64,000 nt of DNA, taken from Nitrososphaerales archaeon (lineage in GTDB: Archaea; Thermoproteota; Nitrososphaeria; Nitrososphaerales; CADDZS01). Below the pieces are notes generated by a model that did not search any database, was not told the DNA's origin, and worked only from the letters and a program-made list of their open reading frames with translations. The translations under genes were made by a program, and so were the position numbers. This document shows, piece by piece, positions 15,797 to 35,438 of the stretch; within the stretch, counting starts at the first letter, position 1, and each line of letters begins with the position of its first letter. The stretch covers positions 1-64,000 of the forward strand of contig JASHPO010000014.1 in assembly GCA_030038075.1 (NCBI GenBank), in the 5' to 3' direction.

Positions 15797-17041
15797 CTAA
15801 ATTGGAGAAGGAGGAAGTTTCTCTACCTTCTCAGGAGGGTGGTTTACATAAGTGTGCTTCTCCGGCATTTTCAACTGTCCGGTATAGGTGATCTGATCGA
15901 TGATGCATCCTTTTTCTACTTCGACGTTCTCGGCAAATATCTTGCTGGCTGAAGAATAGGCGCCAAGGTGGACGTTTGTCGCGTATATGTCGTCAACTTT
16001 GGTCGCCCTCCCGATCATCCGCGCTTGGACGTCTTGACCCACCCAGTGTGCTTGCCAAGAGCCTACGTTCAGTTGGCTCTTTCCTACTTCAACAGTCTCT
16101 GCGACGATTGGTCCCTCACATCTGGAACCACTTCCGATAGTAATTGTCTTCGCTTTCAGTCCACGCTCAGTTTCTATTCTTCCGGCTATGTCTGCATCGC
16201 TGGTGAATATAGCTTGGCTTGCTTCGAATTTCCCCGCAGCACGCAGTTTGGTTCCAGTGACATTTCCCTCTACTTCAGTTGTGCCATAACTCTCAAGGAC
16301 ATCGGAAACTGCAAGTGAACCTGACACTTCGAGCTCTCCACTGACGAGAATCTTCTTTGAAGTGCAGTTTCCTTCTATCTCGTTTTTGCCACGCACTTCC
16401 ATTTCGTCGCAACTCATATCTCCAACAACGTCCAGTTTGCCGTTGGTTGAAATCTTCTTCGCAGTACAGCCAGCCGCCAATTCGGCTTTACCTGTGATGA
16501 ATAGTTCCTCGAACCCGACTTTTGAGGCGGCCTCTAGTTTACCACGTATTTGTGTGGTTCCTGAAATCTGACCGCCGCCAATTTTTGCGTTCCCTGTGAT
16601 GGTGATATCGTGGAGTTTGAATGAGTCCGGTACTCTGAGTTTTCCTGTGACTTCGAGTGATTTCGAGACTTCGAGATTGGCCTCCACTTTTACTGCTCCG
16701 TTCGCGCGAATTTCGTTTGCAGTTATCGAGTTTGAATAGATCCTCCCTTCGACCTCGATGTTTCTCGCTTTGGTTTCGCCATCGACTTCGATCGACTGTA
16801 CTATGTCGAGCTCATCTTGTACAGTAAGATCTCCGTTGACCTTGACAAAGCCGTGATTTATCCTGAGTTTGTTGCATTCCAAACTGCAGTTTACTTCTGC
16901 GCTACCCTCAAAATACGCTCCTTCGGTCACGACGACCTTTCCGTCGATTGCCTCAATCTGAGCGTTTCTCCCTACCTTGAGCTCGCCGTCGACCCGGCCG
17001 AGTTTTGCTGTGCTGTTACGTGCAACTTCGAAATCCGGCAT
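15797..17041 (-). CDS. Bactofilin-like / polymer-forming beta-solenoid protein
   Basis: 414 aa of short repeated beta turns such as LEVSKSLEVTGKLRVPDSFKLHDITITGNAKIGGGQISGTTQIRGKLEA. Confidence 0.65.
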   Translation of the reverse strand: MPDFEVARNSTAKLGRVDGELKVGRNAQIEAIDGKVVVTEGAYFEGSAEVNCSLECNKLRINHGFVKVNGDLTVQDELDIVQSIEVDGETKARNIEVEGRIYSNSITANEIRANGAVKVEANLEVSKSLEVTGKLRVPDSFKLHDITITGNAKIGGGQISGTTQIRGKLEAASKVGFEELFITGKAELAAGCTAKKISTNGKLDVVGDMSCDEMEVRGKNEIEGNCTSKKILVSGELEVSGSLAVSDVLESYGTTEVEGNVTGTKLRAAGKFEASQAIFTSDADIAGRIETERGLKAKTITIGSGSRCEGPIVAETVEVGKSQLNVGSWQAHWVGQDVQARMIGRATKVDDIYATNVHLGAYSSASKIFAENVEVEKGCIIDQITYTGQLKMPEKHTYVNHPPEKVEKLPPSPI

Positions 17042-17280
17042 GTCAACTATTTTGCTTTGTTTCCCTAAAAGTATGGCTCACGTGTTGTGATTATTTTCAA
17101 ATTATTTCGCCTTCAAGAGTTGTTCGCCAGCGATACCTGGGTTTGCCTGAGCGATTGGTTTCAGCTGGCGTGAAAAAAGAGATTGAAAAGGGCGTAATGT
17201 TTGTGAACATTATAGGAAATGTGAGGAAATTCACTTGGTTTTAATTCCGACTCGGTTCACATGGTCACGCAAAGTGAGTT

Positions 17281-18150
17281 CTAGATTGCTCTAAGCGCTC
17301 TTCTGGCAATCAAGTAGCCAATGAGACCCATCACTGCTGCGAAGATAGCAAGGTACAGCATGTCGAAGCCGATTGTCGAAACTTGGGCACCTGTCAGGTT
17401 TGTACCGTGAATAATCAATAGTCGCGCTATCTCGTCCGCCTTTGAAATCGGATTGACGTTGGATATTGCGAGAAGCCATACTGGAAATGAGCTGCTGGGA
17501 AATATCGCGTTACTCATGAACACTAGAGGTAATGTGGCAAATTGTGCAATCGCAACGAGGGAGTCGATGGTTTTTACGGTAAAAGCCAAGGCGGTGAAGA
17601 CGGATCCGAATGCAAAGGCAATGAGTGAAAATCCCATAAATATGATGATGAAGGATAGCACGTTGAAGCCTGTTCCAAAAACGAGGCCGTCGGGTAGCGC
17701 TATTGCGACGAAGAAAGTTACCAGTGCTAGGATCATTCCTTTTACAAAGTTTTGTGCAACACCCGAGAAGAAAATGGATGCCCTAGTTATCGGGGCAACA
17801 AGTATGGTATCAAGATAGCCGAGTTCCTTGTCCAATATGATATCTATCCCGCCAAAGGCAACCGTGAATATTATTATAAGCGAAATGACTCCCGCTACAA
17901 GGTAAGTGATGTAGTCGGAAGCGCCGCCGAAAGTCTGGCCGAGGATTGTTGTTCTTATGCTCGCTATAACACTTGGAGGAAGAGCGGCGCTGGAAATTTC
18001 CGAAGGAATAAGGTTGGTTGGATTGAATGAGCTTCCGAACAGTGCAAGCCAGAATGCTGACATGAACAAGCCGGGTAAGACTGCTGATGGATTTCTGTAG
18101 AATTTTTTGAGTGCTCTCTCGGTTAGAGCGATTGTATCTGAGAAGAACAT
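17281..18150 (-). CDS. ABC-2 type transporter permease (DrrB-like)
   Basis: Six-TM architecture with ABC-2 motifs (ITRASIFFSGVAQNFVKGMILAL, LPLVFMSNAIFPSSSFP). Confidence 0.85.
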   Translation of the reverse strand: MFFSDTIALTERALKKFYRNPSAVLPGLFMSAFWLALFGSSFNPTNLIPSEISSAALPPSVIASIRTTILGQTFGGASDYITYLVAGVISLIIIFTVAFGGIDIILDKELGYLDTILVAPITRASIFFSGVAQNFVKGMILALVTFFVAIALPDGLVFGTGFNVLSFIIIFMGFSLIAFAFGSVFTALAFTVKTIDSLVAIAQFATLPLVFMSNAIFPSSSFPVWLLAISNVNPISKADEIARLLIIHGTNLTGAQVSTIGFDMLYLAIFAAVMGLIGYLIARRALRAI

Positions 18151-18162
18151 GACGCTCGAGTC

Positions 18163-19149
18163 CTAGTGCGGTCCCCACTGTGATGGGGCTCCTTGATCTT
18201 TTTCTGATTCTTCGAATGATCTGCCCGTTACTTCGAGAAAGACCTGTTCCAGTGTGGGCTTTGTAAAAGTAATGTCCGTGATCTTGAGTCCCTTGTTGGT
18301 GACGCCGTCAACTATCGCTGGAAGGGCTTTTTCGACTCTCGGTAGTTTGACCCTGTATGAATTGGGTGTTGGTTTTGTCACCTCGGAGACCTCTGGGATA
18401 TTTTTCAAGAAAACAGTCATGTCCTGTCCGTCAGTTAATTCAAGTGTAAGAATATCTCCGCCGAGTTTCTCTTTGAGTTCTGATGGAGGTGCGGATACTT
18501 TAATCGTGCCGTCGTCGATTATTGCTACTCGATTACATAAAGAGTCAGCCTCCTCCATGTAGTGGGTGGTCATGAAGACGGTGAGCCCTGAGTCTCGGTT
18601 GAGGCGCTGGATGTATTGCCACATCTTCGCGCGCATCTGGATGTCCATGCCCAATGTGGGTTCATCCAAGAACAAAATTTTTGGTGTGTGTATGAGTCCC
18701 AAAACGAGTTGAAGGCGACGACGCATACCACCGGAGTACGTCTTGACGGGTTTTGCTACAGCATCCTCCAAGTCGACAAGTTTCATTAGCTCAGCGGCCT
18801 TCCTCTGAGCTTCTTGTTTGGGAACGTGTTGTAGTCTTGCCGTGAGAAGAACATTCTCGATTCCCTTTAGTTCGTTATCGGCGGTGAGTTGCTGCGGAAC
18901 GACGCCGATACTAGCTCTGACGGCTGAGGGATCTTTAGTAACGTTGTGGCCGGCTACGGTTGCAGTCCCTTCGCTTACGCTCGCGAGTGTGGTTAACATT
19001 CTGATGGTTGTGGTTTTGCCTGCTCCATTGGGCCCGAGAAAACCGAAAATTTCCCCTTCTGTTACGCTGAAGGAAATATGATTGACTGCTATTTTTTCGC
19101 CGAATTTCTTGGTGAGGTTATCAGCTTGAATTACGGTGGTGTTACTCAT
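18163..19149 (-). CDS. ABC transporter ATP-binding protein (DrrA/CcmA-type)
   Basis: Walker A GPNGAGKTTT, signature YSGGMRRRL, Walker B ILFLDEPT, DrrA-type C-terminal domain. Confidence 0.93.
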   Translation of the reverse strand: MSNTTVIQADNLTKKFGEKIAVNHISFSVTEGEIFGFLGPNGAGKTTTIRMLTTLASVSEGTATVAGHNVTKDPSAVRASIGVVPQQLTADNELKGIENVLLTARLQHVPKQEAQRKAAELMKLVDLEDAVAKPVKTYSGGMRRRLQLVLGLIHTPKILFLDEPTLGMDIQMRAKMWQYIQRLNRDSGLTVFMTTHYMEEADSLCNRVAIIDDGTIKVSAPPSELKEKLGGDILTLELTDGQDMTVFLKNIPEVSEVTKPTPNSYRVKLPRVEKALPAIVDGVTNKGLKITDITFTKPTLEQVFLEVTGRSFEESEKDQGAPSQWGPH

Positions 19150-19215
19150 CGGTCGTCATGAAGATGTTTGTGGTAGGGATTATAACCTCTACTCACTTTC
19201 CTTGCTCACGTGAAG

Positions 19216-19746
19216 TTAGTTAGTAGTCTCGTTTAGCGCATTGTCCAAGAGCTCTGAAAGTATTTCGACGTGACTTTTGCCAGTTTTGGTCGAAAGTTCC
19301 CTTAATTTCTCACGAATAAGCTTGTTTTGAACGGTTGTGTTGTTACCGCAGCATTTCGACCAGTGCAGTTTATTTTCATGCATGAATGATGTAAAGGATG
19401 CTCTGATGTGTGGATCGGGGTCGGGGTTCTTGCTTAGAAAGTCGTTTTGAAGTGCGAAAGATATGTATTTGTGAAAACGTGTGTGTTCTGTTACAATGTA
19501 ATTCATCCCGTTGACATTGTGTCCAAGCAGGTCGTGAATGGAATAATGTCTGCCACCGTGGAGACCGGCACTTGATATTTTGATTGTAGAGGCGTGCTCG
19601 TAATTTTCGAATATGAATCCAATCTCAGCAGGAGTGAGTTCAGATTTGAGGCAAAAGCCGTCTCTCATCTTGTCGAGGGCAGATGTGATCGTTTCTCTTC
19701 TTCTCTCTAGCGAGAACTCCAAGACTTGATTTTGGTTCTGGCTCAT
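19216..19746 (-). CDS. Hypothetical protein (176 aa)
   Basis: Intact ORF; contains HDLLGHNVNGMNYIVTEHTRFHKY and SKCCGNN; no family recognised. Confidence 0.5.
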   Translation of the reverse strand: MSQNQNQVLEFSLERRRETITSALDKMRDGFCLKSELTPAEIGFIFENYEHASTIKISSAGLHGGRHYSIHDLLGHNVNGMNYIVTEHTRFHKYISFALQNDFLSKNPDPDPHIRASFTSFMHENKLHWSKCCGNNTTVQNKLIREKLRELSTKTGKSHVEILSELLDNALNETTN

Positions 19747-19802
19747 CGAGTATCACAACTTGATTTTCTTTCTGGGGTTTCAATTATTAGATTGGGTGTT
19801 TG

Positions 19803-19955
19803 CTAACCGGGAGATGTGAACTCTTTCGCTTCTGAATGGGTTAAGGAAGTTTCGTATGAGTAGGAGCACAAAGTGCATCGACCGTTCTCGATTCTAGAGC
19901 CGCATTTTGGGCACTTCGTAAACTGTTGCTTTTCTTTCGTCAGAAGGATTGGCAA
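19803..19955 (-). CDS. Small zinc-ribbon protein (TTG start, absent from ORF track)
   Basis: Translates as MPILLTKEKQQFTKCPKCGSRIENGRCTLCSYSYETSLTHSEAKEFTSPG*; two CxxC pairs. Confidence 0.5.
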   Translation of the reverse strand: MPILLTKEKQQFTKCPKCGSRIENGRCTLCSYSYETSLTHSEAKEFTSPG

Positions 19956-20393
19956 ACTGAGGTGATATAGGCATACGAAATTAGATAAGCGTTTGCTAAT
20001 TGATGATTCTAGGAACGAATCAGGCTCATACTTGTGAATTATTTGTGTGGGTGGCTACAAATATGTAAAATGTATAGAATTACTGGAAGAAAATTTAATA
20101 AGAATTATACTGATCGGTGATTGCGGTTTCCGACGTGTGCTTTCGTGCTACACTTGGTTGAAGTTCATGGACACGCAATGAAGAAAGGGTAAATGTGCGC
20201 TCATTATCGTAGGACTTCGTGGGAAGGCTAGGAGTAGTGGCATTTATAATTCTCATTGGGCCAGTCAAGGAAAAATAGCTGCTTATTTTAGAAATAAGTT
20301 GATGGAAAGGGCCTTAATTTAGAGGATGAGAGCGCGCTCTTCGTGTATGATATACAGTGCATTTTATAAGACTTCGACGGAAAGTGTGTATAG

Positions 20394-21335
20394 TTGAATG
20401 TGGCAGAAATTACACTGAAAGCTCCTCTCGCCAAAGTTTTGAAGGCGCCGGAAAGATCGCAGTTGGTTAACGCCTTCACCCAAGCTTTCAAGACTAGCGG
20501 TATTTCCAACGTATCAGTAAAAGACATCTTTTTCGTCGATAGGAGGTCTGGAGCAGTCCCATCTGAGGGTACAACGTTTCTAGTTGTTACTTTTAGTTTG
20601 GATGGTGTTTCCGTACAAATAATTGATGCGTTGGATGCTCTAATTGAAGAAGGGTCGCTGGCAGGCCGAAAGTTGCTGGTTTCTGCTGGCGGCAACTCGC
20701 TTGTAGATCCTGACGGCAACTTGTTGTCGGACGAGAGGCTGGTTGAGCTGATTGCGACTGCGCGGCTGGTAAAGTCAGATAGGAGTCGAGGTCGTACGGG
20801 TCTAGTTTATGGTAACGTACTTTACTTTCCTTGGTCGGCTGAACCAATCTCTATAGTCTTAACGGTTATGAGTGCTGATATCTTGAATGAAATAGTTGAT
20901 GGTCGAATGCGTGGGTTGGCCCCTTACGTGAAAGTGAAATGGTTCACATGCTCGATTTGTGGAGAAATGTTCGACGAATGTGATCACAAAATTGGTGAAG
21001 AGTATAATGGTAGAGTTTGCTTGGGTGTGCCGCGAGACATCCAGTTTCTTGAGGAAACTGTTACCGACCTGCCAGTTGATCCGCGCTGCAGGATGACGGA
21101 TCTTTTGATCTTAGGCAAGGAGCGAATTGAGCAGGAGTGGTACGGGTTTCAAGGAGTGAACATTCTGGACAGGTTGGGGAATATTAATGAGGCGAAAAAA
21201 GACGAAATTATTAGTAAGGAAGCGGCTTCAAAGTTTAAGCTTTATTTTTCAAGGCATTCAGTTGGTCACTGCAAATTCCATGAGACAAAAGCTAAGGAAA
21301 AAGCTAAATCATTGGCAACATCTCGTCGTAAATGA
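20394..21335 (+). CDS. Hypothetical protein with central Cys/His cluster (313 aa)
   Basis: CSICGEMFDECDHKIGEEYNGRVC and a C-terminal HSVGHCKFHE; long intact ORF. Confidence 0.65.
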   Translation: MNVAEITLKAPLAKVLKAPERSQLVNAFTQAFKTSGISNVSVKDIFFVDRRSGAVPSEGTTFLVVTFSLDGVSVQIIDALDALIEEGSLAGRKLLVSAGGNSLVDPDGNLLSDERLVELIATARLVKSDRSRGRTGLVYGNVLYFPWSAEPISIVLTVMSADILNEIVDGRMRGLAPYVKVKWFTCSICGEMFDECDHKIGEEYNGRVCLGVPRDIQFLEETVTDLPVDPRCRMTDLLILGKERIEQEWYGFQGVNILDRLGNINEAKKDEIISKEAASKFKLYFSRHSVGHCKFHETKAKEKAKSLATSRRK

Positions 21336-21729
21336 GTAGAGGAAGGCATTGTATTTCGATCTCGTCCTTGCATGGATTTGAGAGGTTGAGCGATTGTGGT
21401 AGGATGAGCGGTGATTGGTCGGGAACGAAGCGGAAGACGATAACCCAAGGGTTTATTTTTTTCTGCTCGAAAGTGTTGATTATCTCTTCATAGGATGACT
21501 CTTCAAAATCAATTTCTCTGGATTGATCTTGCTTTTCCAGAGTTACCGTATTGTAGCTTTGGTCGAAATATAGAAAGGTTAAGGGACTTTGGTCCCTGTG
21601 AATTTGCTGGACTTTGGCGCACAATGTGAAATATGTAGTGTAGGATGAATATTTGTGTAGTTGGTTTAAGAGGAGATCAGGATGGGATATAGCTAGTGTT
21701 GAGGAGGTCGTGGGGGGTTGTCTGGACAA
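21304..21729 (-). CDS. Hypothetical protein (141 aa) overlapping an upstream HTH gene
   Basis: Intact ORF; overlaps the end of 21677-22141 by 53 nt. Confidence 0.4.
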   Translation of the reverse strand: MSRQPPTTSSTLAISHPDLLLNQLHKYSSYTTYFTLCAKVQQIHRDQSPLTFLYFDQSYNTVTLEKQDQSREIDFEESSYEEIINTFEQKKINPWVIVFRFVPDQSPLILPQSLNLSNPCKDEIEIQCLPLLIYDEMLPMI

Positions 21730-22141
21730 TCATGTCTTTTCTTTGTTCCTCTGTGCGTGCCAGCTTGTAGCTCCACCCAGAGCCACGGCGCTGTCTGGTA
21801 AGAAGTCCTCTTTGTGACAGCCTAGACAGATACGTCGATATGATGCTGAGCGTTGTGGTGGTGTTGAAATCTAGCTGGTACGCCTGAAGGACGTCATTCG
21901 ATGTGAATGATCCGAAACGAAACCTACTCTCTAGGAGGCCATAGAGTTTTGAAAAGTTTGTGTCGGGTCTTGGTTCCTCTATATTAGTTGAGAGAGATTG
22001 TGCAAAGTCAATGAGTTTTGCAATATTATCTTTGGAGGTGCCCTCGACATTGAAGGAGTATTTTGTTCCTACATCGTCGTTGAACTCTATTTTCACTTTG
22101 ATAGGTTTGATGAGAGAGTCAAATGGCATATTCGGATTCAT
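21677..22141 (-). CDS. Origin-proximal wHTH-like protein
   Basis: GLLESRFRFGSFTSNDVLQAYQLDFNTTTTLSIISTYLSRLSQRGLLTRQRRGSGWSYKL reads as a winged helix. Confidence 0.6.
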   Translation of the reverse strand: MNPNMPFDSLIKPIKVKIEFNDDVGTKYSFNVEGTSKDNIAKLIDFAQSLSTNIEEPRPDTNFSKLYGLLESRFRFGSFTSNDVLQAYQLDFNTTTTLSIISTYLSRLSQRGLLTRQRRGSGWSYKLARTEEQRKDMIVQTTPHDLLNTSYIPS

Positions 22142-22327
22142 TGATCGCGGTCTAATAGGTTAACAGTACTATTTGCATAGTAGATAACGAGTGAAGCTGT
22201 GAACGTGTCAACGTTGGAGTCAACTTAATCTGTCTTGGTTGAGATTGGTAGATGGTATGGCTATGGGTATGCTGGAGCCTTTGTGGGATAATTGATTGGT
22301 TATTGGTTATTTAGTAAAAGGGATGAA

Positions 22328-22352
22328 TTTCCAGTGGAAACGAAGGGGTGGT
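22328..22352 (+). repeat. ORB-like element 1
   Basis: TTTCCAGTGGAAACGAAGGGGTGGT: dyad CCAGTGGAAAC plus G-string, as in archaeal origin recognition boxes. Confidence 0.88.
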
Positions 22353-22392
22353 AGGTGATAAAGGAGGTAGACAGGTTTACGAGTATAATTTA

Positions 22393-22417
22393 GGTCCAGT
22401 GGAAGGAAAGGGGTTGT
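22393..22417 (+). repeat. ORB-like element 2
   Basis: GGTCCAGTGGAAGGAAAGGGGTTGT; same orientation as element 1. Confidence 0.85.
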
Positions 22418-22467
22418 GAATTGGATCTATTATAGCCTAAGGTGATTAATAGGCGCTCACCCTGGAT

Positions 22468-22489
22468 GTTCCAGTGGAAAGAAACTTGG
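22468..22489 (+). repeat. ORB-like element 3 (degenerate, lacks G-string)
   Basis: GTTCCAGTGGAAAGAAACTTGG; core kept, G-string replaced. Confidence 0.7.
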
Positions 22490-22669
22490 AATAGGGCTTG
22501 TTAGTTACCAAGAATTAGTGAATATTAACCTCTTGTTAACTTGATCAGTCTTTACTGTTTTTCTTTAGTTGAACGGTAACATCTACCCTATACATGAAGC
22601 ATAACAAAACTTACAATTTCTACACTTTGACACTACTCCACTCGAAACTATGCTAGGCGGCCCTTTTAC

Positions 22670-23896
22670 TTGGTTCAACAACATGATCCACTTGACATCG
22701 TCTTTCAAAAGGCAATATCATTTCATAGTATCTTCACGAACCACGCTAGTCTTCGCTCTGACTTTATACCCAACACACTCCCTTTCAGGTCGGATCAGAT
22801 AACTGCAATCGGCCAAACACTTGCTCCATTATTACGAAATACGAAACCTTCTAACCTTCTGATCTATGGGAAAACTGGCACAGGAAAAACTGCAGTCACC
22901 AGGTACACTATCAGTAGGCTCTCTTCTATCTGCAAATCTCAAGGAATAAACGCACACTTCGCATACTGCAACAGCAGGGCCGCTGGAACAGAGTATAGAG
23001 TTCTGGTCGAGCTCGCAACCACCCTAGGGCTGACCATACCATTCACAGGCCTAGCTGTATCCGAAGTTCTATCACGCCTCCATCAGCAGATATCTTCTAA
23101 AGCAATAGCAGTAATCCTAATACTCGATGAAATCGACTACTTGATCAAACTCTTCGGCGACAACCTCCTCTACTCCCTCATAAACACTTCAAGTGACCTC
23201 TCACCAAACTTCTTTTCGCTCGTTGGTATCTCCAACGACCTACACTTCAAGGACTCTCTTGATGCCAGGGTGCTCAGTCGACTGTCAGAAGAGGAACTAG
23301 TCTTCCCCCCATATACTACAACAGAACTCAAGACCATTCTTCAAGACAGAGCCAAGTTAGCCTTTAACCCTGGAACCTTCACCGAGGCCGCGATCAACCT
23401 CTGTGCCGCTCTCTCCGGTTCGGAGCATGGAGACGCTAGAAGAGCGGTAGACCTACTCAGAATATCCGCCGAAGTCGCCGAGAGAGACGCAAGTGGCACC
23501 TTGGATGAAAAACACGTTCGCATAGCTCTCCAAAAAATAGATCAAGACAGAATCACTGACGCTCTTAAGACACTGCCTCTCCAAGCAAAGCTAATCCTCC
23601 TCGCCACAATCATGAGCAGCTCAAACAGACAGCCTAAAGCCTCCAGCGGATCCATCTATAACGAATATGTCAAACTGTGCACAACCGCAGGACTAGATCC
23701 TCTCACTACCAGAAGAGTATCTGGTTTAGTCACCGAACTAGACACACTTGGTCTAGTCAGTGCCAAACTCGTAAACTATGGAAGATACGGACGCACCAAA
23801 ACCATCACTCCACAAGTCTCACTCTCAACCCTTCAGCTTGCCTTCGAATCAGACGACACTGTAAGCCAGATTATTTCGAGCCTAGAGAGAAACTAG
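22670..23896 (+). CDS. cdc6: Orc1/Cdc6 replication initiator (TTG start)
   Basis: Walker A IYGKTGTGKTAV, Walker B LILDEID, sensor VGISNDLHFKDSLDARVLSRL, GDARRAVDLLR, C-terminal wHTH. Confidence 0.96.
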   Translation: MVQQHDPLDIVFQKAISFHSIFTNHASLRSDFIPNTLPFRSDQITAIGQTLAPLLRNTKPSNLLIYGKTGTGKTAVTRYTISRLSSICKSQGINAHFAYCNSRAAGTEYRVLVELATTLGLTIPFTGLAVSEVLSRLHQQISSKAIAVILILDEIDYLIKLFGDNLLYSLINTSSDLSPNFFSLVGISNDLHFKDSLDARVLSRLSEEELVFPPYTTTELKTILQDRAKLAFNPGTFTEAAINLCAALSGSEHGDARRAVDLLRISAEVAERDASGTLDEKHVRIALQKIDQDRITDALKTLPLQAKLILLATIMSSSNRQPKASSGSIYNEYVKLCTTAGLDPLTTRRVSGLVTELDTLGLVSAKLVNYGRYGRTKTITPQVSLSTLQLAFESDDTVSQIISSLERN

Positions 23897-25400
23897 TTAG
23901 GAATTCTTTCCACACAACCTCAATAGTGGCGAGGTTCACAACAGGCACAATTCCAGGCCTCGGACTAATTCCCAAGTTCGCTTGGTAGCCCGTTTGCGCT
24001 TGCCAGCACCCAGAGTTTAGGATCAGGGTCGACTTGTAATTATCCTCCCCGACCGCATGAACATGTCCACAGTGAAAAATATCTGGTACCTGCTCGATAA
24101 CCAAAGAGTCTTCCCTTTCCGGAGCAATTGGCGTTCTGTGACCGAAAATAGGAGCCAAGTGACGTGCCCGCAACAGCACTTTCATCGCCTCTTCAGGTCG
24201 CTGGTAAGATAGTCCAGGAGTTGTTGCAAGAACATCATCCAAGCTCCTACCATGATATGTCAGCACTGACACTCCGTTCAACTTGAACAAACATGGGTCT
24301 CCTAACATTCGAACGTTGAGCAGTGAATAGAGCCCTTCCGCATATTTCCTCGGAATCATCGGCTGGGGCAACGCCTGCCTAGTAGCATCATGGTTTCCAG
24401 GGATAACGAACATCTGCAAATGCCTAGGAACTAACTTTAGCTTTTTCGCCACCATCTCATACTGCTTGTAGACATCCTGCTCCGCCAACTCATACTCTTG
24501 ATTCGGAAAAACACCGACCCCATCGACAATGTCTCCGCCTATTACCAAATACTTTAGTCGCCCGATGATCTCTTCGTCCTCCTCACTGCGCCCCGTAACT
24601 CCGTTCAGCCATTCAAGGAATCGATTGAAGGCGCTTTCCATGAACTTGTCACTCCCAACATGAAGATCGGAAAGGAATACCGCGTAAACCGTCTTTTTCG
24701 ATGTTGAAGCTACTCTGCTGGGGGTGTCTGGTTGGAATATATTTTTCGCAAGTAATCTCCCCTGCGACGCATCAACATCTACCATAATACACTGATCCAG
24801 AGTAATTTCACTGAGAGCTTTTTTTACTTCACTACTTGATACCAAAACAGAAACATTCCCTGTGTCGTCATCCAAGGTGAACTCAACGCCGCCGCTTTTT
24901 GTAGGCCGCTTTACCGACACCAATCCCGCAATTCTTGCATTACCCTTCTCTTTACCCATTTTTGAAATCTTGATCAGCTGCCGACCCTCAGGTCTCTCCA
25001 TCAATATCTTTACCAACTTCTCATAGCGACTCTTGAACAGGAAAGAAAAGGTCTCCACACCGGGAGAGAGCAAAGACCCCGAATCACTTACAATCTCTAC
25101 TTCCGATTCTAAATCCTTCCCACCCTCTTTCACTCCTGATGCCATAGACGCTGACCTACTGAGTCTAAAAGCGACACCTTCAAAAATATCTGGAAACACA
25201 CTCACAAGATCGTCAATCTCAATACTCTTGCTAGACTTCCCCCTAGCTTTCTCTTCAATCACTTTACGTACTATCTCTTCGACACTTATTTCACTACGCC
25301 CCTTACCGAAGTCTTTTAACACAGTCAACGCCTTGGGACTTATTTGATAACCAAAACTGAGCGCCTCAACCAACGCCTTCTGCAACGAATTCGTAGTCAA
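23871..25400 (-). CDS. polB: DNA polymerase D small subunit (DP1)
   Basis: Calcineurin-like phosphatase motifs FLSDLHVGS, VIGGDIVDG, PGNHDA, CGHVHAVG after an OB-like domain. Confidence 0.95.
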   Translation of the reverse strand: MTTNSLQKALVEALSFGYQISPKALTVLKDFGKGRSEISVEEIVRKVIEEKARGKSSKSIEIDDLVSVFPDIFEGVAFRLSRSASMASGVKEGGKDLESEVEIVSDSGSLLSPGVETFSFLFKSRYEKLVKILMERPEGRQLIKISKMGKEKGNARIAGLVSVKRPTKSGGVEFTLDDDTGNVSVLVSSSEVKKALSEITLDQCIMVDVDASQGRLLAKNIFQPDTPSRVASTSKKTVYAVFLSDLHVGSDKFMESAFNRFLEWLNGVTGRSEEDEEIIGRLKYLVIGGDIVDGVGVFPNQEYELAEQDVYKQYEMVAKKLKLVPRHLQMFVIPGNHDATRQALPQPMIPRKYAEGLYSLLNVRMLGDPCLFKLNGVSVLTYHGRSLDDVLATTPGLSYQRPEEAMKVLLRARHLAPIFGHRTPIAPEREDSLVIEQVPDIFHCGHVHAVGEDNYKSTLILNSGCWQAQTGYQANLGISPRPGIVPVVNLATIEVVWKEFLTSFSLGSK

Positions 25401-25411
25401 GCAGAATGACC

Positions 25412-26809
25412 TTACTTACTGCATGCTAAAGCGACACTTATCCCGTCTTTGAGCAAAAATACAGCTTCGCTCTCCTTGGGCGATTCCACATAGACCCGAA
25501 CTTTCTTCTCCGTGCCAGAACTCCGCACCATCAGCCAAGCTCCGCTTTTCAGGTAAACCTTAACTCCATCCAACTCGTCGAATTTTTCAATCTCATCACC
25601 AAATTTCTCCCTGACCTTTGCTTTCACACAGACGTAGTCCACACTCCCGCCGAGTTCCAAGTTCTTCTGCAGGTTATAATAAACCGGAATACTAGAAACA
25701 GCTTCGCTCAAACTGATTCTCTTTTCCGCCAGATACTGCGATACCAAAACAGCCGTGTAGATGCCATCCTCCCAATATCCCCACCGAGGATCTACCATCT
25801 TGCTCGGCTCCGACGCAAATATCCCCTTCCGCTTGTACAGTTCTTCGAAAGTTTTGCCCAATCGAGACCTCTCTACGTTACAACCTAAATCCTGCGCCGT
25901 TTTCTCCAACGCGCTCGACGAATTCACAGAGATAATTACATTGCCTTTCTTCACTTTCTCTGCAATTATTTTCAGAACGACGGCAGAAAGCGCGTAATCC
26001 GGGACTACTCTACCAGCCTCGTCTATCATCACGAGACGATCCGCGTCACCATCGTGAGCGACCCCGAAATCAGCATGAACCGTTTTCGTAAAAGACGACA
26101 CCTCTCCCAGAGTTTCAAACATAGGTTCCGGCTGCCTCCCTGGAAACCTCTCGCTTGGATGTGCGTTAAGCGTCACCACATGGTGGCCCAGATCAGACAG
26201 CAAAGCCGGAGTCACTCCGAAAGCTGTCCCGTTGGCGCAATCCACAACTATCTTGAAACTCTTCTTGGCTGGCTCATTGCGCTTCAGCACCGCGGCCTTA
26301 TACAGTGCAACAGCTTCATCATTTTCGAAAGTCCCCCCAAAATTCTCTATGCCCTCTTTCTTCGCATACCTCTCACTCTTCAGCACCAGCTGCTCCAGTT
26401 TCTGTTCTGCTTCTAGGGAAAACTCAATTCCATCAGTTCCAAAGACCTTCACGCCAGCATACTCCGCCGGGTTGTGAGAGGCGGTGACTGAAAAACCTGC
26501 ATGCAACCTGCTGTTCTTTATGTTGAATGCCAGCACTGGCGTCGGTATCATTCCATAGCATTCCACGTCGCTACCGTACCAACTCATCGCCGAACAAGCA
26601 ATGTTCGCGAGTATGACTGACGTCCTGCGGCTGTCATACCCGACTCCAAATTTACCCTCCCCAAGAAGCTGATGAACCGCGTAACACACTGCGATCGTAT
26701 CTTTCATAGAAACTTCCTGTCCGTAAATGCCCCTGATACCAGCGGTCCCGAACTTTACTCTGATTTGCGGGACATTCAGCTCAGTAGATTGGTCGGCTTC
26801 TTGAGACAC
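25412..26809 (-). CDS. glmM: Phosphoglucosamine mutase/phosphomannomutase family
   Basis: VTASHNPAEYAGVKVF, DGDADRLVMID, RSSGTEKKVRVYVE. Confidence 0.9.
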   Translation of the reverse strand: MSQEADQSTELNVPQIRVKFGTAGIRGIYGQEVSMKDTIAVCYAVHQLLGEGKFGVGYDSRRTSVILANIACSAMSWYGSDVECYGMIPTPVLAFNIKNSRLHAGFSVTASHNPAEYAGVKVFGTDGIEFSLEAEQKLEQLVLKSERYAKKEGIENFGGTFENDEAVALYKAAVLKRNEPAKKSFKIVVDCANGTAFGVTPALLSDLGHHVVTLNAHPSERFPGRQPEPMFETLGEVSSFTKTVHADFGVAHDGDADRLVMIDEAGRVVPDYALSAVVLKIIAEKVKKGNVIISVNSSSALEKTAQDLGCNVERSRLGKTFEELYKRKGIFASEPSKMVDPRWGYWEDGIYTAVLVSQYLAEKRISLSEAVSSIPVYYNLQKNLELGGSVDYVCVKAKVREKFGDEIEKFDELDGVKVYLKSGAWLMVRSSGTEKKVRVYVESPKESEAVFLLKDGISVALACSK

Positions 26810-26863
26810 AAATCAACCCTATTGAAACGGCAGCTAATCAACAATACTGAGCTATAGGATAGT

Positions 26864-26895
26864 AAAAAAGAGGGATCGCGGGTTCTATAACCCGC
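26864..26895 (-). terminator. Hairpin plus U-tract downstream of 26901-27476
   Basis: Perfect 7-bp stem GCGGGTT-CTAT-AACCCGC (26878-26895), followed on the minus strand by TTTTTT (26864-26869). Confidence 0.5.
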
Positions 26896-26900
26896 CGAAT

Positions 26901-27476
26901 CTACGAAGTGCCAGTGACCTGTGTGGTTACTGTCGGAGTATTGACCGGAATTGGAACCACACCAGCCAGTGCCAAGAAAGGCGAATCCGATACGGTCAAG
27001 CCCCTCTGGACTGTAGGTCCGCTACTCACAGTGAATAGCAGAGACACTACCAATGTATCCGGTCCGGTCGTCGTTATGGTTATCGACTGCGAAGGATGCT
27101 GAAAGTTGAGCATCACGACACCGGCCGAAGCCACGGACAGACCAGTCACTGTCACGTTGAAGACGCTGAAAACCTGCTCCAGTACAGGCAGATTCTCCAG
27201 TGCTAACCCGTAGGTTCCAGCATTCGTGAAGTTGATCACTGCAGTTGACGACTGGGTTCCCGATTCACCAACTACAAGTGTTCCCAAGTTGAGTGACGCT
27301 ACCTGAGTTACGTTCGTGGATGAGGGCTTTATGATAAAACTCAGCTCCCCAACCACGTTCGAGATGCTCCCATTGCCCGACGCTGCTACCGCACCGCCCG
27401 ATATTCCAATCGAAGCGACGAGTAGCACTGCGGCGAGCTTGTGGGCCGCGATTGCTGATATGATGGGTAATCCCAT
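26901..27476 (-). CDS. Secreted/surface protein of unknown function
   Basis: N-terminal signal-like segment (LAAVLLVASIGISGGAVAAS) and Ser/Thr/Val-rich beta body. Confidence 0.6.
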   Translation of the reverse strand: MGLPIISAIAAHKLAAVLLVASIGISGGAVAASGNGSISNVVGELSFIIKPSSTNVTQVASLNLGTLVVGESGTQSSTAVINFTNAGTYGLALENLPVLEQVFSVFNVTVTGLSVASAGVVMLNFQHPSQSITITTTGPDTLVVSLLFTVSSGPTVQRGLTVSDSPFLALAGVVPIPVNTPTVTTQVTGTS

Positions 27477-27594
27477 GATTATCAGCTAAGATATCATTGA
27501 GAATTTTATTAGAATCTACTTAATAGAACAAACTTCCAAAACAATAGAAAACGTTCTATTTTGAGCCGTTCTAGGGTGCTAGAACAGAGCTTTC

Positions 27595-28935
27595 CTAGCG
27601 GATTTTGATATACTTGTACGCGGCCGTGCCAGTGTCAAACGCATAGTGAACTTTCTGGTACGAATTCCTGAGATGTCTCACTTCTTCCTTAACCTTCAAC
27701 GCATCCTCCTTCTTGACAATAATCTTGGCTAGGAAAGAAGCAATCTGTCGCATTTCCTCTTTTCTCATACCCAAACGAGTTACTTCACTGGTGCCCAATC
27801 TCAAGCCGCCCGGATGCATGTAGTGCCTACCTGCTTGGATATCCCCTGGAATCAATTGCCGGTTCACAATAATGTTCGCTTTTTCAAGATCCTTTTCTAA
27901 ATTCCCCCCGTCCCCATACTTTGTCACATCAACTGCTATTTGATGCGATTTCGTGAATCCTAGATTCGACGCAAGCACATCCAAACCTTCATCATTTAAC
28001 GCCCCTGCCAACGTCTTCGCATTTTCAATCACCCGTGTGGCGTACTCCTCTCCGAATTCCAAAAACTCCGCAAAAGCGATAGCCTTACCGGCGACGTGAT
28101 GCAAATGATGGTTGCTGGACGTTCCAGGAAACGCCCCTGCCTTGATCTTCTCGGCATACTTGTCCCACGACAGCACAGTCCCTCCCTGCGGTCCGAAGAG
28201 TGTTTTATGCGTCGATAACGACACCGCATCTACTCCTTCAGCAAGGGGTGCCTGAAATTGCTTTCCAGCAATCAAGCCTGAGACATGCGCCGCATCATAG
28301 CAAACCACAATACCCTCACTCTTGAAAAATTCCGACAGTTCCTTTACAGGATGCGGGAAGAGAAACAGACTCCCACCAAACATGACCATCTTCGGCTTTT
28401 TGCCTTCACTCTCTAACTTTCTGACTTTCTCTTTCGTCTTGTCAACATCAATGTTCCAGTTTTCTCTGTCAAAAACAAAATACTCCACGTTGAGACCATG
28501 AACCAACCCGGCAGTTCCGTTAAACTCTTTTCTCGCAGCAGAAATGTGCCCTCCATTGGGAATCGCCAGAGCCATCATTGTATCTCCCGGATCTGCAAAG
28601 GCCGAGTAAACCGTAAGATTCGCACACACTCCTGAAACAGGCCTCACGTCGGCAAACTCGGCACTGAACAATCTTTTCGCTAAATCAAGGCAGATAAGCT
28701 CCACTTCATCGATGTAGGTGCAGCCAGCATAGACACGATCTCCCGCCCAGCCTTCCGCGTACCTGTTGGCAAAGTCGGAAATAATTGCTTCCCGAACCGC
28801 AGGGCTCGGAACGTTTTCCGATGCGATCAGAGGAATCGAGTTTGCAAACCAATCTTGATGAGCTTCAAGAGCTTGAAAAATTTTGTTGTACGACGAAAGC
28901 GCGGAATCCATGCCGAGCGTTATTTCCGCACTCAA
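27595..28935 (-). CDS. glyA: Serine hydroxymethyltransferase
   Basis: IPLIASENVPSPAVR, ANRYAEGWAGDRVYAGC, VSLSTHKTLFGPQGG, HPGGLRLGTSEVTRLGM. Confidence 0.95.
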   Translation of the reverse strand: MSAEITLGMDSALSSYNKIFQALEAHQDWFANSIPLIASENVPSPAVREAIISDFANRYAEGWAGDRVYAGCTYIDEVELICLDLAKRLFSAEFADVRPVSGVCANLTVYSAFADPGDTMMALAIPNGGHISAARKEFNGTAGLVHGLNVEYFVFDRENWNIDVDKTKEKVRKLESEGKKPKMVMFGGSLFLFPHPVKELSEFFKSEGIVVCYDAAHVSGLIAGKQFQAPLAEGVDAVSLSTHKTLFGPQGGTVLSWDKYAEKIKAGAFPGTSSNHHLHHVAGKAIAFAEFLEFGEEYATRVIENAKTLAGALNDEGLDVLASNLGFTKSHQIAVDVTKYGDGGNLEKDLEKANIIVNRQLIPGDIQAGRHYMHPGGLRLGTSEVTRLGMRKEEMRQIASFLAKIIVKKEDALKVKEEVRHLRNSYQKVHYAFDTGTAAYKYIKIR

Positions 28936-28959
28936 TAAATAAGGCTTGTAAAGAAAAGC

Positions 28960-29271
28960 CTACAACATGCTCTCGATAGTATAGCCATCAAATGGCTTTT
29001 CCAGCAAGACCCGCGAGTAATTCATTATTTCCATAACGCGCATAAAATCAGTGAAGGAAAACCTCCCTGAGACCATGAGCCAGTTCGGACTCGCCCGCGA
29101 ATCCATAGCCTTTCCTTGAACTTGCAGGTTGTCGAGGACTTTTTGAAAATCCTCAATGTCCTTCTTGTTGACCGGAACGTTCTGAATCGGTACCGCATTC
29201 AAACTCGCAAAGCTTTTCGGATCCCACATTAGCTTCGCAACTATCACCTGTGAGAGTGTTGTAACTAACAT
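28960..29271 (-). CDS. Hypothetical protein (103 aa)
   Basis: Intact ORF, coding-like. Confidence 0.5.
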   Translation of the reverse strand: MLVTTLSQVIVAKLMWDPKSFASLNAVPIQNVPVNKKDIEDFQKVLDNLQVQGKAMDSRASPNWLMVSGRFSFTDFMRVMEIMNYSRVLLEKPFDGYTIESML

Positions 29272-29312
29272 GAGTTAAACACTGGTAATTCGATTATATG
29301 TAAATTTTAACT

Positions 29313-30695
29313 CTATTTTGACATCGCCGCTACCATATCTGCAAGGACTCTCTTTGCATCACCGAAAACCATCATCGTGTTAGGCAGGTAAAACAACTCG
29401 TTATCGACTCCGGAAAAACCTGGAGCCATCGACCTCTTGATGAACACGACAGTTTTTGCCTTGTCCACGTTAAGTATTGGCATACCAAACAGCGGCGAGT
29501 CGGGCCTCGTGTGTGCTGCAGGATTCGTGACATCGTTTGCGCCAACAACTATAACGACATCTGTTTCGGGGAAAAGCGAATTTATCTTATCCATCTCCCA
29601 CAGCTGATCATATGGTACCTGCGCCTCTGCCAAAAGGACATTCATATGACCCGGCATCCTCCCGGCGACTGGATGAATGCCATACTTTACGTCGATACCT
29701 TTACTCTGCAAAATGTCCGATAGCTCCTTGACTACATGTTGCGCTTGGGCTACTGCCAGCCCGTAACCTGGAACTATCACCACACTTCGAGCGTTATCCA
29801 GTATCGTAGCCACGTCTTCGACCGTGTAACCGCTGACAGTCCGCCCGTTCTCGGTAGCTTTCTCAGAAACGATCTGTTTTGCGCCAACTCCGCCGAACAA
29901 CACATTCATGAACGAGCGATTCATCGCCTTACTCATTATGAGACCGAGAACCAGTCCCGACGAGCCATCAAGGGCTCCGGCAACGATAAGCACTCTATTG
30001 TCCAAGACAAATCCTAGAGCTGCTGCAGAGAGACCGGCATACGAATTCAATATTGCGATCACAGTTGGCATATCCGCTCCGCCTATCGCAATCACCAGTA
30101 GAAACCCGAAGAGCAACGCGAACGCGGCCATGACGGGGAGAACGAACTCTTGTGAGGGAAATAGCGCGAGATAGATTCCGAGAGCGATTGCTATTCCTAG
30201 CGAGGAAAGACTTACCATAGTCCTTCTAGGATAAATCAGAGGTTTGCCAGGAAGTATTCCCTGCAGCTTGCAGAACGCTATGCAGCTCCCGACGAAGGTA
30301 AGGTACCCGAGGATCATCTCAGCGGACAAGACAATTACGGTATACGGGTCCACATTCGGCGCTCTCTGATAGAACTCCGCCGTCCCCACAAGAGCTACTG
30401 CGAGAGATCCAAACGCATGCGACATCGCGGTTCGCTGCGGCACAGCAGTCATTGGAACTTTTAGGGCAATCGGCGAGCCAATGACGACCCCTATGACAAC
30501 ACCGACGAGTAGGAGGTCAATTCTGTGAATTTGATAAGCGATCAGCGTGGCAGAGATTGCTACGACCATGCCAGCGACGCCGAAATAGTTCCCAAGCCTA
30601 GAAGTCCGTACTTCGCTCATTTCTCTGAGCGACATTATGAAAAAACCGATTGCAACCACGTAGAGAAGCTGCGTGAAAATCGGAAAGGCGGTCAT
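29313..30695 (-). CDS. pntB: NAD(P) transhydrogenase beta subunit
   Basis: VVIVPGYGLAVAQAQHVVKEL, HPVAGRMPGHMNVLLAEAQVPYD, VGANDVTNPAA. Confidence 0.95.
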   Translation of the reverse strand: MTAFPIFTQLLYVVAIGFFIMSLREMSEVRTSRLGNYFGVAGMVVAISATLIAYQIHRIDLLLVGVVIGVVIGSPIALKVPMTAVPQRTAMSHAFGSLAVALVGTAEFYQRAPNVDPYTVIVLSAEMILGYLTFVGSCIAFCKLQGILPGKPLIYPRRTMVSLSSLGIAIALGIYLALFPSQEFVLPVMAAFALLFGFLLVIAIGGADMPTVIAILNSYAGLSAAALGFVLDNRVLIVAGALDGSSGLVLGLIMSKAMNRSFMNVLFGGVGAKQIVSEKATENGRTVSGYTVEDVATILDNARSVVIVPGYGLAVAQAQHVVKELSDILQSKGIDVKYGIHPVAGRMPGHMNVLLAEAQVPYDQLWEMDKINSLFPETDVVIVVGANDVTNPAAHTRPDSPLFGMPILNVDKAKTVVFIKRSMAPGFSGVDNELFYLPNTMMVFGDAKRVLADMVAAMSK

Positions 30696-31003
30696 TTCTT
30701 TGGTTCTTCTCTTCTTTTGAACAGTCGAAGTATACGCTCTGTAAGCAGAAATCCGGAGACGATGTTTGTGAATGCAAGCGCGATAGCAACTGTCACAAGA
30801 ATGAGAATCGTATCACTCGAAGTTGGTTCTGCGAGCACGATTAGTGCTGCCACAAACGACACCGAAGAAATCGCATTCGTCAGCGCCATGAGCGGTGTGT
30901 GGAGGAGCCTTGAAACATGGCGGACAAGCTCGATGCCGAGAAACGTAGCCATCATAAAAATGAGTATGTTAACTACGAGGTCGCTCTGCGTTGCGTCTAC
31001 CAT
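30692..31003 (-). CDS. NAD(P) transhydrogenase alpha subunit, transmembrane part
   Basis: ELVRHVSRLLHTPLMALTNAISS and FTNIVSGFLLTERIL; 4-nt overlap with pntB. Confidence 0.88.
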   Translation of the reverse strand: MVDATQSDLVVNILIFMMATFLGIELVRHVSRLLHTPLMALTNAISSVSFVAALIVLAEPTSSDTILILVTVAIALAFTNIVSGFLLTERILRLFKRREEPKK

Positions 31004-31012
31004 GAGTTTCTG

Positions 31013-32152
31013 TCACGCTTTTGCCGTTGCCAACTTTTCAAGAGCAGCCTTGGTTCTCTGATGCAAGATTTCCCCCTTACTGGTAACAAGAGGACCCCGG
31101 ATCAGATCATCCTTCAAGTCCAAGTTCAAATTACCATCTTTCAGCAGTATCGACAGAAAAGTCGTAACGTTTCTGGAATAAAGCTGGCTTGACTGCTGGG
31201 CCATGGTGGCGGGAAGGTTCAGAGGTCCGTGAATGGTGACTCCGTACTTTACCACGATTTTCCCCGGCTCTGTACATGCACAGTTACCTCCAGCCTCGGC
31301 AGCAAGGTCTACAACGACCGAGCCGAACCTCATTCCCTTGACGGCATCCTCAGAAACAAGAATCGGGGCTCGCTGGCCCGGAATCAGCGCCGTAGTGATA
31401 ACCACATCAGATTCGCGAACACGCTCCCCCAAGAATTTCTGTTGCCTCACATTGAAATCAGCTGTCTGTGCTTTGGCATACCCGCCGGAATCCTGCGCGT
31501 CCTTCGACTCGACTGGAATCTCAAAGAATTTTGCCCCCAAACTCATCACCTGCTCTTTCACAACCGGACGCACATCATATGCTTCCACAACCGCGCCAAG
31601 CCTCCGGGCGACCGCAATTGCCTGTAAGCCGGCCACCCCAGCACCGATGATGAATACCCTCGACGGAGAAATTGTCCCCGCAGCGGTCATGAGCAGGGGA
31701 AAAAGTTTCGGTAAAGAATCAGCCGCAAGCAGAACAGCTTTGTATCCAGCAACCGTCGCTTGGGAAGAAAGCGCATCCATCGACTGGGCTCTGCTAATCC
31801 TCGGTATCAAGTCCATCGCAAACGCGTTAACTTCCAGACTTCCCAGCTTCTGCACACTCTCCAAGTTGCTTAGCGGATAGAGAAACGAGATTAGAGTAGA
31901 ACCTCGCTTCAGCATGGAGGCTTCGGAGACCGTTGGAGGCTGAACTTTTAGAACAACATCAGATTTATCGTAGAGCTCTCTTGCGTTTGCGGCAATCATC
32001 GCTCCAGAGTACGCGCCATCCAAAAATCCGGAGGCAACTCCAGCGCCAGTTTCTATCACAACACTGATTCCCTTTAGCTTGAAAAGAGAATCAGGAACCA
32101 AAGAAACGCGGGTCTCTCCAGAAACCGTCTCTTTGGGAACGCCAACAAACAT
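31013..32152 (-). CDS. pntA: NAD(P) transhydrogenase alpha subunit, NAD-binding part
   Basis: VGVPKETVSGETRVSLVPDS, VFIIGAGVAGLQAIAVARRLGAVVEAYDVRP, VVVDLAAEAGGNCACTEPG. Confidence 0.93.
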   Translation of the reverse strand: MFVGVPKETVSGETRVSLVPDSLFKLKGISVVIETGAGVASGFLDGAYSGAMIAANARELYDKSDVVLKVQPPTVSEASMLKRGSTLISFLYPLSNLESVQKLGSLEVNAFAMDLIPRISRAQSMDALSSQATVAGYKAVLLAADSLPKLFPLLMTAAGTISPSRVFIIGAGVAGLQAIAVARRLGAVVEAYDVRPVVKEQVMSLGAKFFEIPVESKDAQDSGGYAKAQTADFNVRQQKFLGERVRESDVVITTALIPGQRAPILVSEDAVKGMRFGSVVVDLAAEAGGNCACTEPGKIVVKYGVTIHGPLNLPATMAQQSSQLYSRNVTTFLSILLKDGNLNLDLKDDLIRGPLVTSKGEILHQRTKAALEKLATAKA

Positions 32153-32210
32153 TACATTTCAAACGAGAAAAAAATCATCTATTTATTGCATTAGCGAAAA
32201 AACTTGCCCT

Positions 32211-32975
32211 CTACGGCAAGAGCTTCTCTCTTCTTATCAATCGACTAGCGAGCAGGAATAGCGCAAGTGACAAAGTAATGATTATTGCGGCTACAGTTAG
32301 GTCTCCAATAACAGCGAAAACTGGAGCGACGAGTGGAATTAGATAGGTGGGTAGCACCATCATCACACCTAGTCCCATTCCTAGTGGCTGGTTCGATCCA
32401 ACACGCTGTTTTTGAAGCGAGCCGAAGGCCATCATAGCCAGAGTGACAAAAGAAACTGCCGGGTATCCTATTGCCGGCGTTAGAAGCACCGTCTCAACAA
32501 GAACAAAGAGATTCGTACCAGAATCCAACCCTATTCCAATATTTGCCAGAATCTCGTAAGCAAACATTATTGATGAAAGAAGCAGCGCCGCCTTCAGGTA
32601 TCCTTTGTAAATGTCACCTTGATTCATTCCCAGCGAAAGAAAATATTCTAGAACGCCGTTGTTTTTGTCATAAACATACAACAGTATCACTGGCGTAGCG
32701 AAGGTCAGTGTCGAAAAAACCATTAGTGGCACGGAAATCAAGGGGAGGGCTGAAACTATCTGAAGCTCGTTTTGGTTCGTAATCGGTGCCGTCGGAACTT
32801 GGGCAAGACTCAGGCCAAGTAGCGCATGCCCCACATTTGCAAGGATTATGCCGATGATGGATAAAATCAGGGCAATAACCACGTAGGTCTTGCTCAGGGA
32901 AAGGCTTCTTCGCGCTATCATGAAACTCGAATGAGTCGATCCTAAATCTGGCGTCTTCTCTTCGATTATCTCCAA
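32211..32975 (-). CDS. ABC-2-like membrane permease
   Basis: Six hydrophobic segments; VYDKNNGVLEYFLSLGMNQGDIYKGYLKAALLL is ABC-2-permease-like. Confidence 0.55.
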   Translation of the reverse strand: MEIIEEKTPDLGSTHSSFMIARRSLSLSKTYVVIALILSIIGIILANVGHALLGLSLAQVPTAPITNQNELQIVSALPLISVPLMVFSTLTFATPVILLYVYDKNNGVLEYFLSLGMNQGDIYKGYLKAALLLSSIMFAYEILANIGIGLDSGTNLFVLVETVLLTPAIGYPAVSFVTLAMMAFGSLQKQRVGSNQPLGMGLGVMMVLPTYLIPLVAPVFAVIGDLTVAAIIITLSLALFLLASRLIRREKLLP

Positions 32976-33361
32976 CCACCGACCTTCGATCTAAATACGA
33001 GCCGCAGGATTACAAAGATAATCGGAAAAACGTAGAAACCGAAAAGCTGCAACAACCCCAGTAGAGAGATCAGGCCGCCATTTGTTATCTGTTCAAGAAC
33101 GCCTATGTGCGCGGGAGTCGAGGCCGACATTATCGGCGCAATTACGCCGAGGACAGTCGAAACGTTTATCGAAATTACATTTCCATTTACGACGAAATAA
33201 GACAATACGAAGAGAATGACTACGGCGACTAACGTCGTTTCAATCAGGTACATCGGCACAAGCGAATTCGCGTAAAGGAGGTAACCGCCGATCGAGAGCG
33301 AAATTGCCGAAAGCAGCAGCAAGACGCCCAGAATCGAAACTAATCTCATGCGAGACCACAT
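32966..33361 (-). CDS. Membrane protein
   Basis: Multiple TM segments; 10-nt overlap with the permease gene. Confidence 0.5.
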   Translation of the reverse strand: MWSRMRLVSILGVLLLLSAISLSIGGYLLYANSLVPMYLIETTLVAVVILFVLSYFVVNGNVISINVSTVLGVIAPIMSASTPAHIGVLEQITNGGLISLLGLLQLFGFYVFPIIFVILRLVFRSKVGGWR

Positions 33362-33385
33362 GAGAACCAGAGTCTAAGAATCTAA

Positions 33386-33955
33386 CTATATCTTCGGGAA
33401 AGAGATTTCTCTGGTTTCGACGGTCTTTTTCAAAAATTTCTTTAATGAGCCTATGGGCATGCCATAATAGCGTTCTTCTTTCCAACGTTCCATCATTGCA
33501 ATACTCCTCGTAATCATTCCCAAACACACGCTGTTTTCGTTCTTCTGTGCATGCACTAGAGCAGAAGCTGCAAGAATTACTCCCTGTTGTAGCTCCTTTT
33601 CCAGACGGTTTGTTTCCGTGCGCCAGATTACTTCCATAGTCTCGTGGCATTCCCAATAGCGTTGCGCGTTAAACAGTTCGATGATAGAATGGACAATCGC
33701 CTGTTTCCCTAGAACAGGTGATTCATCATTGAGGTCTCTCTCAGTCAGCAAAGGCCCCAGTTCGCTGACCACACTCTTCACAACTTCCTCGTTCTTTGCA
33801 AAAAGATCAAACTCGATGGCTAGCTCGCTGATCCTGAAATTCTTCAATGACACACCGAACTTTTGGGAGAGTTTCTCATATTTCGCAATAACCTCGCTAA
33901 TCTGTTCTGGTTTGTATTTTTCCTTGTTGGCTATGCGAAAAAGATACCTTGGCAA
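33386..33955 (-). CDS. DUF309 domain protein
   Basis: ELFNAQRYWECHETMEVIWR...LQQGVILAASALVHAQKNE is the DUF309 signature. Confidence 0.8.
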   Translation of the reverse strand: MPRYLFRIANKEKYKPEQISEVIAKYEKLSQKFGVSLKNFRISELAIEFDLFAKNEEVVKSVVSELGPLLTERDLNDESPVLGKQAIVHSIIELFNAQRYWECHETMEVIWRTETNRLEKELQQGVILAASALVHAQKNENSVCLGMITRSIAMMERWKEERYYGMPIGSLKKFLKKTVETREISFPKI

Positions 33956-33976
33956 AAAAGCACCACTGTACCCAGC

Positions 33977-35401: not shown

Positions 35402-35438
35402 GGCTGCCTATTTTCTAGAGAGGCACAATTTATCATTA

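Follow-up and report, generated by a model that had tools for sequence, protein, structure and literature searches.

At Sulfolobus oriC1, inverted ORBs flank an AT-rich duplex unwinding element (DUE) beside orc1-1, and firing needs both ORBs (PMC12141716). UBP, the ucm-binding origin protein of Sulfolobus, is described as a saddle-shaped, strand-swapped dimer (PMC12141716). Haloarchaeal origins are defined by inverted G-string ORBs beside cdc6 (PMC3528665), and Nitrosopumilus maritimus has a single origin, mapped by Pelve et al. 2013 as cited in PMC4010727.

We analysed a 64,000-nucleotide stretch of DNA (the window) from a Nitrososphaerales archaeon, together with its genome assembly (2.6 Mb, 170 contigs, 86% complete) and related genomes. 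Boxes were counted genome-wide by pattern searches and skew was computed on the contig. An earlier note on this DNA had proposed an ORB-type oriC beside orc1/cdc6, a proposal well supported by (i) a layout conserved in relatives, (ii) ORBs that are nearly unique in each genome, (iii) an initiator of the Orc1-1 type, and (iv) a switch in strand composition. Judging from sequence, the chromosome's oriC, an origin of the Orc1-1/ORB (oriC1) type, very probably lies in the gap at 22142-22669.

ORB boxes upstream of orc1/cdc6

The 528-bp gap separates a divergent gene (21677-22141, minus strand) from orc1/cdc6 (22670-23896, plus strand), which uses a TTG start and matches TIGR02928 with 366.9 bits (cut-off 181.3). 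This is the sole Orc1/Cdc6 gene found in the genome and, as expected beside an oriC1, its product belongs to the ORB-binding Orc1-1 clade. The closest solved structures are those of S. solfataricus Orc1-1 (2qby_A, 1.5e-102) and A. pernix Orc1 (2v1u_A), the two Orc1 proteins with a crystal structure in complex with origin DNA. Convergent with orc1/cdc6 lies the gene for the small subunit DP1 of PolD (DNA polymerase II; 23871-25400, minus strand), and the order orc1/cdc6, PolD small subunit, phosphoglucosamine-mutase-like gene is kept in a genome of the same genus (G002).

Three TCCAGTGGAA boxes had been reported at 22328, 22393 and 22468, and we found all of them as quoted, inside the gap and before the orc1/cdc6 frame, as a single direct-repeat family with start-to-start spacings of 65 and 75 nt. 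The boxes had also been read as all lying in the same orientation, and this reading had to be revised. The dyad TTCCAGTGGAA is nearly palindromic, almost identical on both strands, so that box orientation is decided by the G-string. ORB1 (22328-22350, plus strand, TTTCCAGTGGAAACGAAGGGGTG) combines the dyad with a G-string and is directly repeated 65 nt on by ORB2 (22393-22415, plus strand, GGTCCAGTGGAAGGAAAGGGGTT). Read on the plus strand (AAAGAAACTTGG), the third box is without a G-string; read on the minus strand (TTTCCACTGGAACATCCAGGGTG, 22480-22458), it carries AGGGTG at the same 5-nt spacing as ORB1 and ORB2, the G-string appearing as CACCC at 22458-22462. Thus, two direct boxes are followed by an inverted one (ORB3, 22458-22480, minus strand). 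The inversion is found in all seven family genomes and is also strong in other families (G018, G040, G017, G019 and G032; minus-strand scores of 27.7 bits in G018, 30.1 in G040 and 23.2 in G017). ORB1, ORB2 and inverted ORB3 form the set of several ORBs, with dyad and G-string at fixed spacing, by which an oriC1 is recognised, and their G-string and its spacing agree with the ORB consensus of PMC4164010. A decayed fourth box at 22635-22657 (plus strand, ACTCCACTCGAAACTATGCTAGG) had been overlooked; this ORB4 relic scores -7.4, no better than chance, and is identified only by its position 158 bp after ORB3, where relatives have an intact ORB4.

These scores come from a position weight matrix (PWM) trained on 43 full ORBs of this and related genomes, ORB1 and ORB2 of this gap included. 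ORB1 and ORB2 reached 34.0 and 29.9 bits, against a best score of 11.9 among 1000 dinucleotide shuffles of the gap, a margin far larger than training-set membership could explain, and 387 kb of neighbouring DNA gave one match of at least 8 bits. Pattern searches of the 2.6-Mb genome returned two copies of the full box TCCANTGGAANNNNNGGGGT, both in this gap, and four of TCCAGTGGAANNNAA, three of them in the gap; the fourth, on contig C157, is solitary and without a G-string, and we took it as a chance occurrence. The same applies to TTCCACTGGAA at 43543 of the window, which is without context. Across 61 genomes of the order (this one and 60 relatives), we counted 51 full boxes, all 5' of cdc6 or of the gene that diverges from it here, which encodes a winged-helix protein; a reversed control pattern gave two matches. 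Boxes are absent where the Orc1-1 ortholog and the winged-helix gene are both absent (for example G024, G027, G034, G043 and G050). As a separate observation, seven mostly small genomes of the order (G034, G043, G050, G057, G027, G045 and G052) have no convincing Orc1/Cdc6, full ORB or winged-helix gene; they are candidates for a natural loss of Orc1-dependent origins, or for binning gaps.

The AT-rich spacer and the switch in strand composition

The earlier note had suggested aligning the same gap in relatives, and the layout proved to be kept where the gene order is kept. Across families, ORB1 and ORB2 point towards cdc6, ORB3 points away from it, about 150-160 bp of AT-rich DNA follow, and ORB4 points towards cdc6. 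The ORB3-ORB4 spacer is 158 bp long in this genome, as in G004, G005 and G006, and 159 bp in G003; the two remaining family members, G002 and G007, have 147 and 161 bp, so that five of the seven differ by at most one base pair. In most other families it measures 142-163 bp. Its length is kept while its sequence drifts, being barely alignable save for one T-tract in mid-spacer (TGTTTTT, 22556-22562, plus strand), kept in family members and possibly a protein site or a melting element. Helical phasing was considered and discarded, as 158, 147 and 152 bp fit no single phase. The spacer has the highest AT content among ORB spacers in 12 of 13 comparable arrays (G000-G053; all but G041), and in 15 of 19 genomes it contains the 50 bp of lowest stability. 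Relatives with an intact ORB4 have the flanking ORB pair around this spacer that characterises oriC1; here, the second flanking ORB (22635) has decayed.

The array is split in families f4 and f13, where ORB1 and ORB2 (in f13, one full box) accompany the winged-helix gene and ORB3 and ORB4 accompany cdc6. Split arrays upstream of cdc6 were seen in G011, G037, G020 and G049, the halves roughly 0.6-1.4 kb apart and with one full box in G020 and G049. An ACGGGCT/ACGGTCT element, which could be a promoter or a protein site, was also observed roughly 40-60 bp before ORB4 in several families other than this one, namely in G018, G041, G032, G020, G049 and G023 (with the variants CGGTCT in G023 and GCGGGCT in G018).

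Where would replication start? Cumulative GC skew, computed over the window, reaches its maximum at 22520, inside the ORB3-ORB4 spacer, a strand-composition switch that would mark the start of bidirectional replication. The disparity-curve extreme used to recognise oriC1 is thus present on this contig, where its sign is unusual and its extent local (about 12 kb). Third codon positions show the switch in the region 15797-35500, centred on 22520: on the plus strand, G and T are in excess left of the centre, C and A right of it. Their skew on this strand runs from +0.20 to +0.39 for genes lying in the adjoining 7 kb on the left and from -0.14 to -0.53 for genes in the adjoining 6 kb on the right, and it declines to zero over some 12-16 kb. 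These values hold for genes on either strand, so transcription does not explain the skew and a change in replication direction does. In relatives, the maximum lies at -110 (G003), -153 (G004), -31 (G007) and -268 (G021) relative to cdc6; it is not near cdc6 in G002 (same genus), G011, G015, G017 and G046. The sign is opposite to the usual bacterial rule, and one might speculate that deamination acts on a leading-strand template, or on 3' overhangs, exposed near the origin. Our literature search found no description of an origin-centred local skew of inverted sign.

Because the skew turns at 22520, within this conserved AT-rich spacer, the duplex unwinding element is probably the spacer itself (22481-22634, 68% AT, least stable 50 bp at about 22521-22570). 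Two AT-rich stretches had earlier been named for this role: 22501-22610 falls in the spacer and keeps its place, and 22281-22330 does not.

Could this be a genuine Orc1/ORB origin that is secondary or dormant, with the main origin elsewhere? Archaea with several origins, and dormant origins, are known, and the fragmented, 86% complete state of the assembly means that further origins are possible. However, a single Orc1/Cdc6 gene and a single ORB cluster were found in the genome, and so strong a strand-composition switch implies regular use. A secondary or dormant role is thus unlikely, and we favour a chromosomal origin in present-day use.

The divergent winged-helix gene

The divergent gene (21677-22141, minus strand) encodes a 154-residue protein with a beta-beta-alpha N-terminus and a BlaI-like winged helix-turn-helix, an architecture that recurs in an alignment of 39 family members. 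Its AlphaFold2 model has a mean pLDDT of 77, rising to about 94 over most of the winged helix. The best folds found for it are BlaI/MecI-, ArsR- and Fur-like (best E 1.9e-3, none below 0.001); the Pfam family PF03965 (BlaI/MecI, Penicillinase_R) was missed at 20.0 bits (gathering cut-off 22.6), and weak PF03965 matches occur in 33 of the 39 homologues. OapA/OapB proved a false lead. UBP is set apart by its description, since the model here is a beta-beta-alpha unit joined to a winged helix; the Sulfolobus ucm motif was not identified at this origin.

A sample of 301 genomes from the phylum yielded the winged-helix gene in 184, and boxes were found in 47 of the 80 phylum genomes searched. In 16 of these 47 the boxes lie between both genes, in 14 by the winged-helix gene only, in 11 by cdc6 only, and in six by neither. 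The 14 genomes come from other families, and their cdc6 lies either 2.9-321 kb off (several at 40-320 kb) or on a different contig. In the 11, the winged-helix gene lies elsewhere with no exact box beside it. The six comprise four genomes without a winged-helix gene, one with its copy at a contig end and one lone match. Boxes thus occur despite an absent winged-helix gene in G071, G078, G092 and G099; in G092, cdc6 is at the contig start and the boxes are near the contig end, so that the two may be adjacent. In G169, an ORB was also seen beside the winged-helix gene (contig C20, 23617-24219), where the sole Orc1/Cdc6 match is distant (27% identity).

This distribution bears on two regulatory explanations of the boxes. 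Lying upstream of cdc6, with ORB4 just before its start codon, they might be operators through which Orc1/Cdc6 regulates its own gene while replication starts elsewhere; we regard this as very unlikely, because the clusters of the 14 other-family genomes adjoin the winged-helix gene and cdc6 lies elsewhere (40-320 kb off in several of them), and because the composition switch coincides with the cluster. Alternatively, the near-palindromic boxes may be operators of the BlaI-like protein, which would control itself and cdc6. BlaI/MecI regulators are known to bind dyads, and 50 of the order's 51 boxes lie no more than about 490 bp from the winged-helix gene, on its 5' side (distances run to matched regions, not verified start codons). 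However, the 11 genomes keep full boxes at cdc6 and no exact box at the winged-helix gene, boxes persist in the four genomes that lack the gene, and the G-string and spacing fit the ORB consensus (PMC4164010), all of which makes such an operator role very improbable. The ORB cluster follows neither gene exclusively; therefore, it is better read as an origin than as the operator of either gene.

What, then, is the role of the winged-helix protein? The gene linkage suggests that it probably acts at or on the origin. This small family, found alongside ORB clusters across the phylum, is undescribed in the literature searched, and no published origin-linked winged-helix protein was found there, most subscription papers lying outside the search. 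We put at about even chances a broader proposal, in which 21677-22141 would encode an undescribed, widespread origin-associated protein of Thermoproteota (either regulating initiation or binding the origin as an auxiliary to Orc1-1) that marks oriC even after orc1/cdc6 has moved, and in which the skew would reflect exposure of the leading-strand template, opposite to bacteria.

Proposed mechanism and comparison with known origins

Initiation at this locus might proceed as follows. Orc1-1 (22670) would bind ORB1 and ORB2 in the same direction and ORB3 in the opposite one; binding to the ORB4 relic, if any, would be weak. The AT-rich stretch of about 155 bp flanked by ORB3 and ORB4 would then melt and receive MCM helicases, and two forks would depart from near 22520, with the DNA-binding protein from the divergent gene at 21677-22141 probably acting at or on the origin. 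We have high confidence in this explanation as a whole, that is, an oriC1-type origin with Orc1-1 on ORBs, a melting spacer, forks from about 22520 and a probable winged-helix partner. Against it count the decay of ORB4 in this genome, the lack of a clear skew peak at this site in G002 and in several other families, and a skew sign contrary to that of bacteria.

The origin itself was to be expected, and its value lies mainly in giving an uncultured lineage an origin of clear anatomy. Its parts are of the expected type; we found no description of the linked protein or of the inverted local skew. Searching for an ORB cluster 5' of the winged-helix gene may serve to locate origins in many archaeal genomes, and the encoded protein is a candidate for a missing initiation factor, testable in cultured relatives. 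The origin-centred skew switch of inverted sign points to the start site and calls for a mutational explanation.

Like haloarchaeal oriC1 (PMC3528665, PMC4010727), the locus has inverted G-string ORBs, an adjacent cdc6 and an AT-rich spacer, a likeness of layout; the haloarchaeal neighbours are gbp, sec and polA, unlike those here. With Nitrosopumilus maritimus, presumably of the same order, it shares a single chromosomal origin in a thaumarchaeon, whereas the ORBs of family f9, probably the Nitrosopumilus maritimus lineage, have diverged to the CCTGGAATGGAAATAAAGGGGTC type. Finally, the locus resembles oriC1 of Sulfolobus/Saccharolobus (Orc1-1, ORB1-3) in its adjoining Orc1-1-type gene, its polar ORBs and its inverted pair around an AT-rich DUE. 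It differs from Sulfolobus oriC1 in that two direct ORBs precede the inverted pair, whose far ORB is a relic, and in that its neighbours are a PolD subunit gene and a winged-helix gene.
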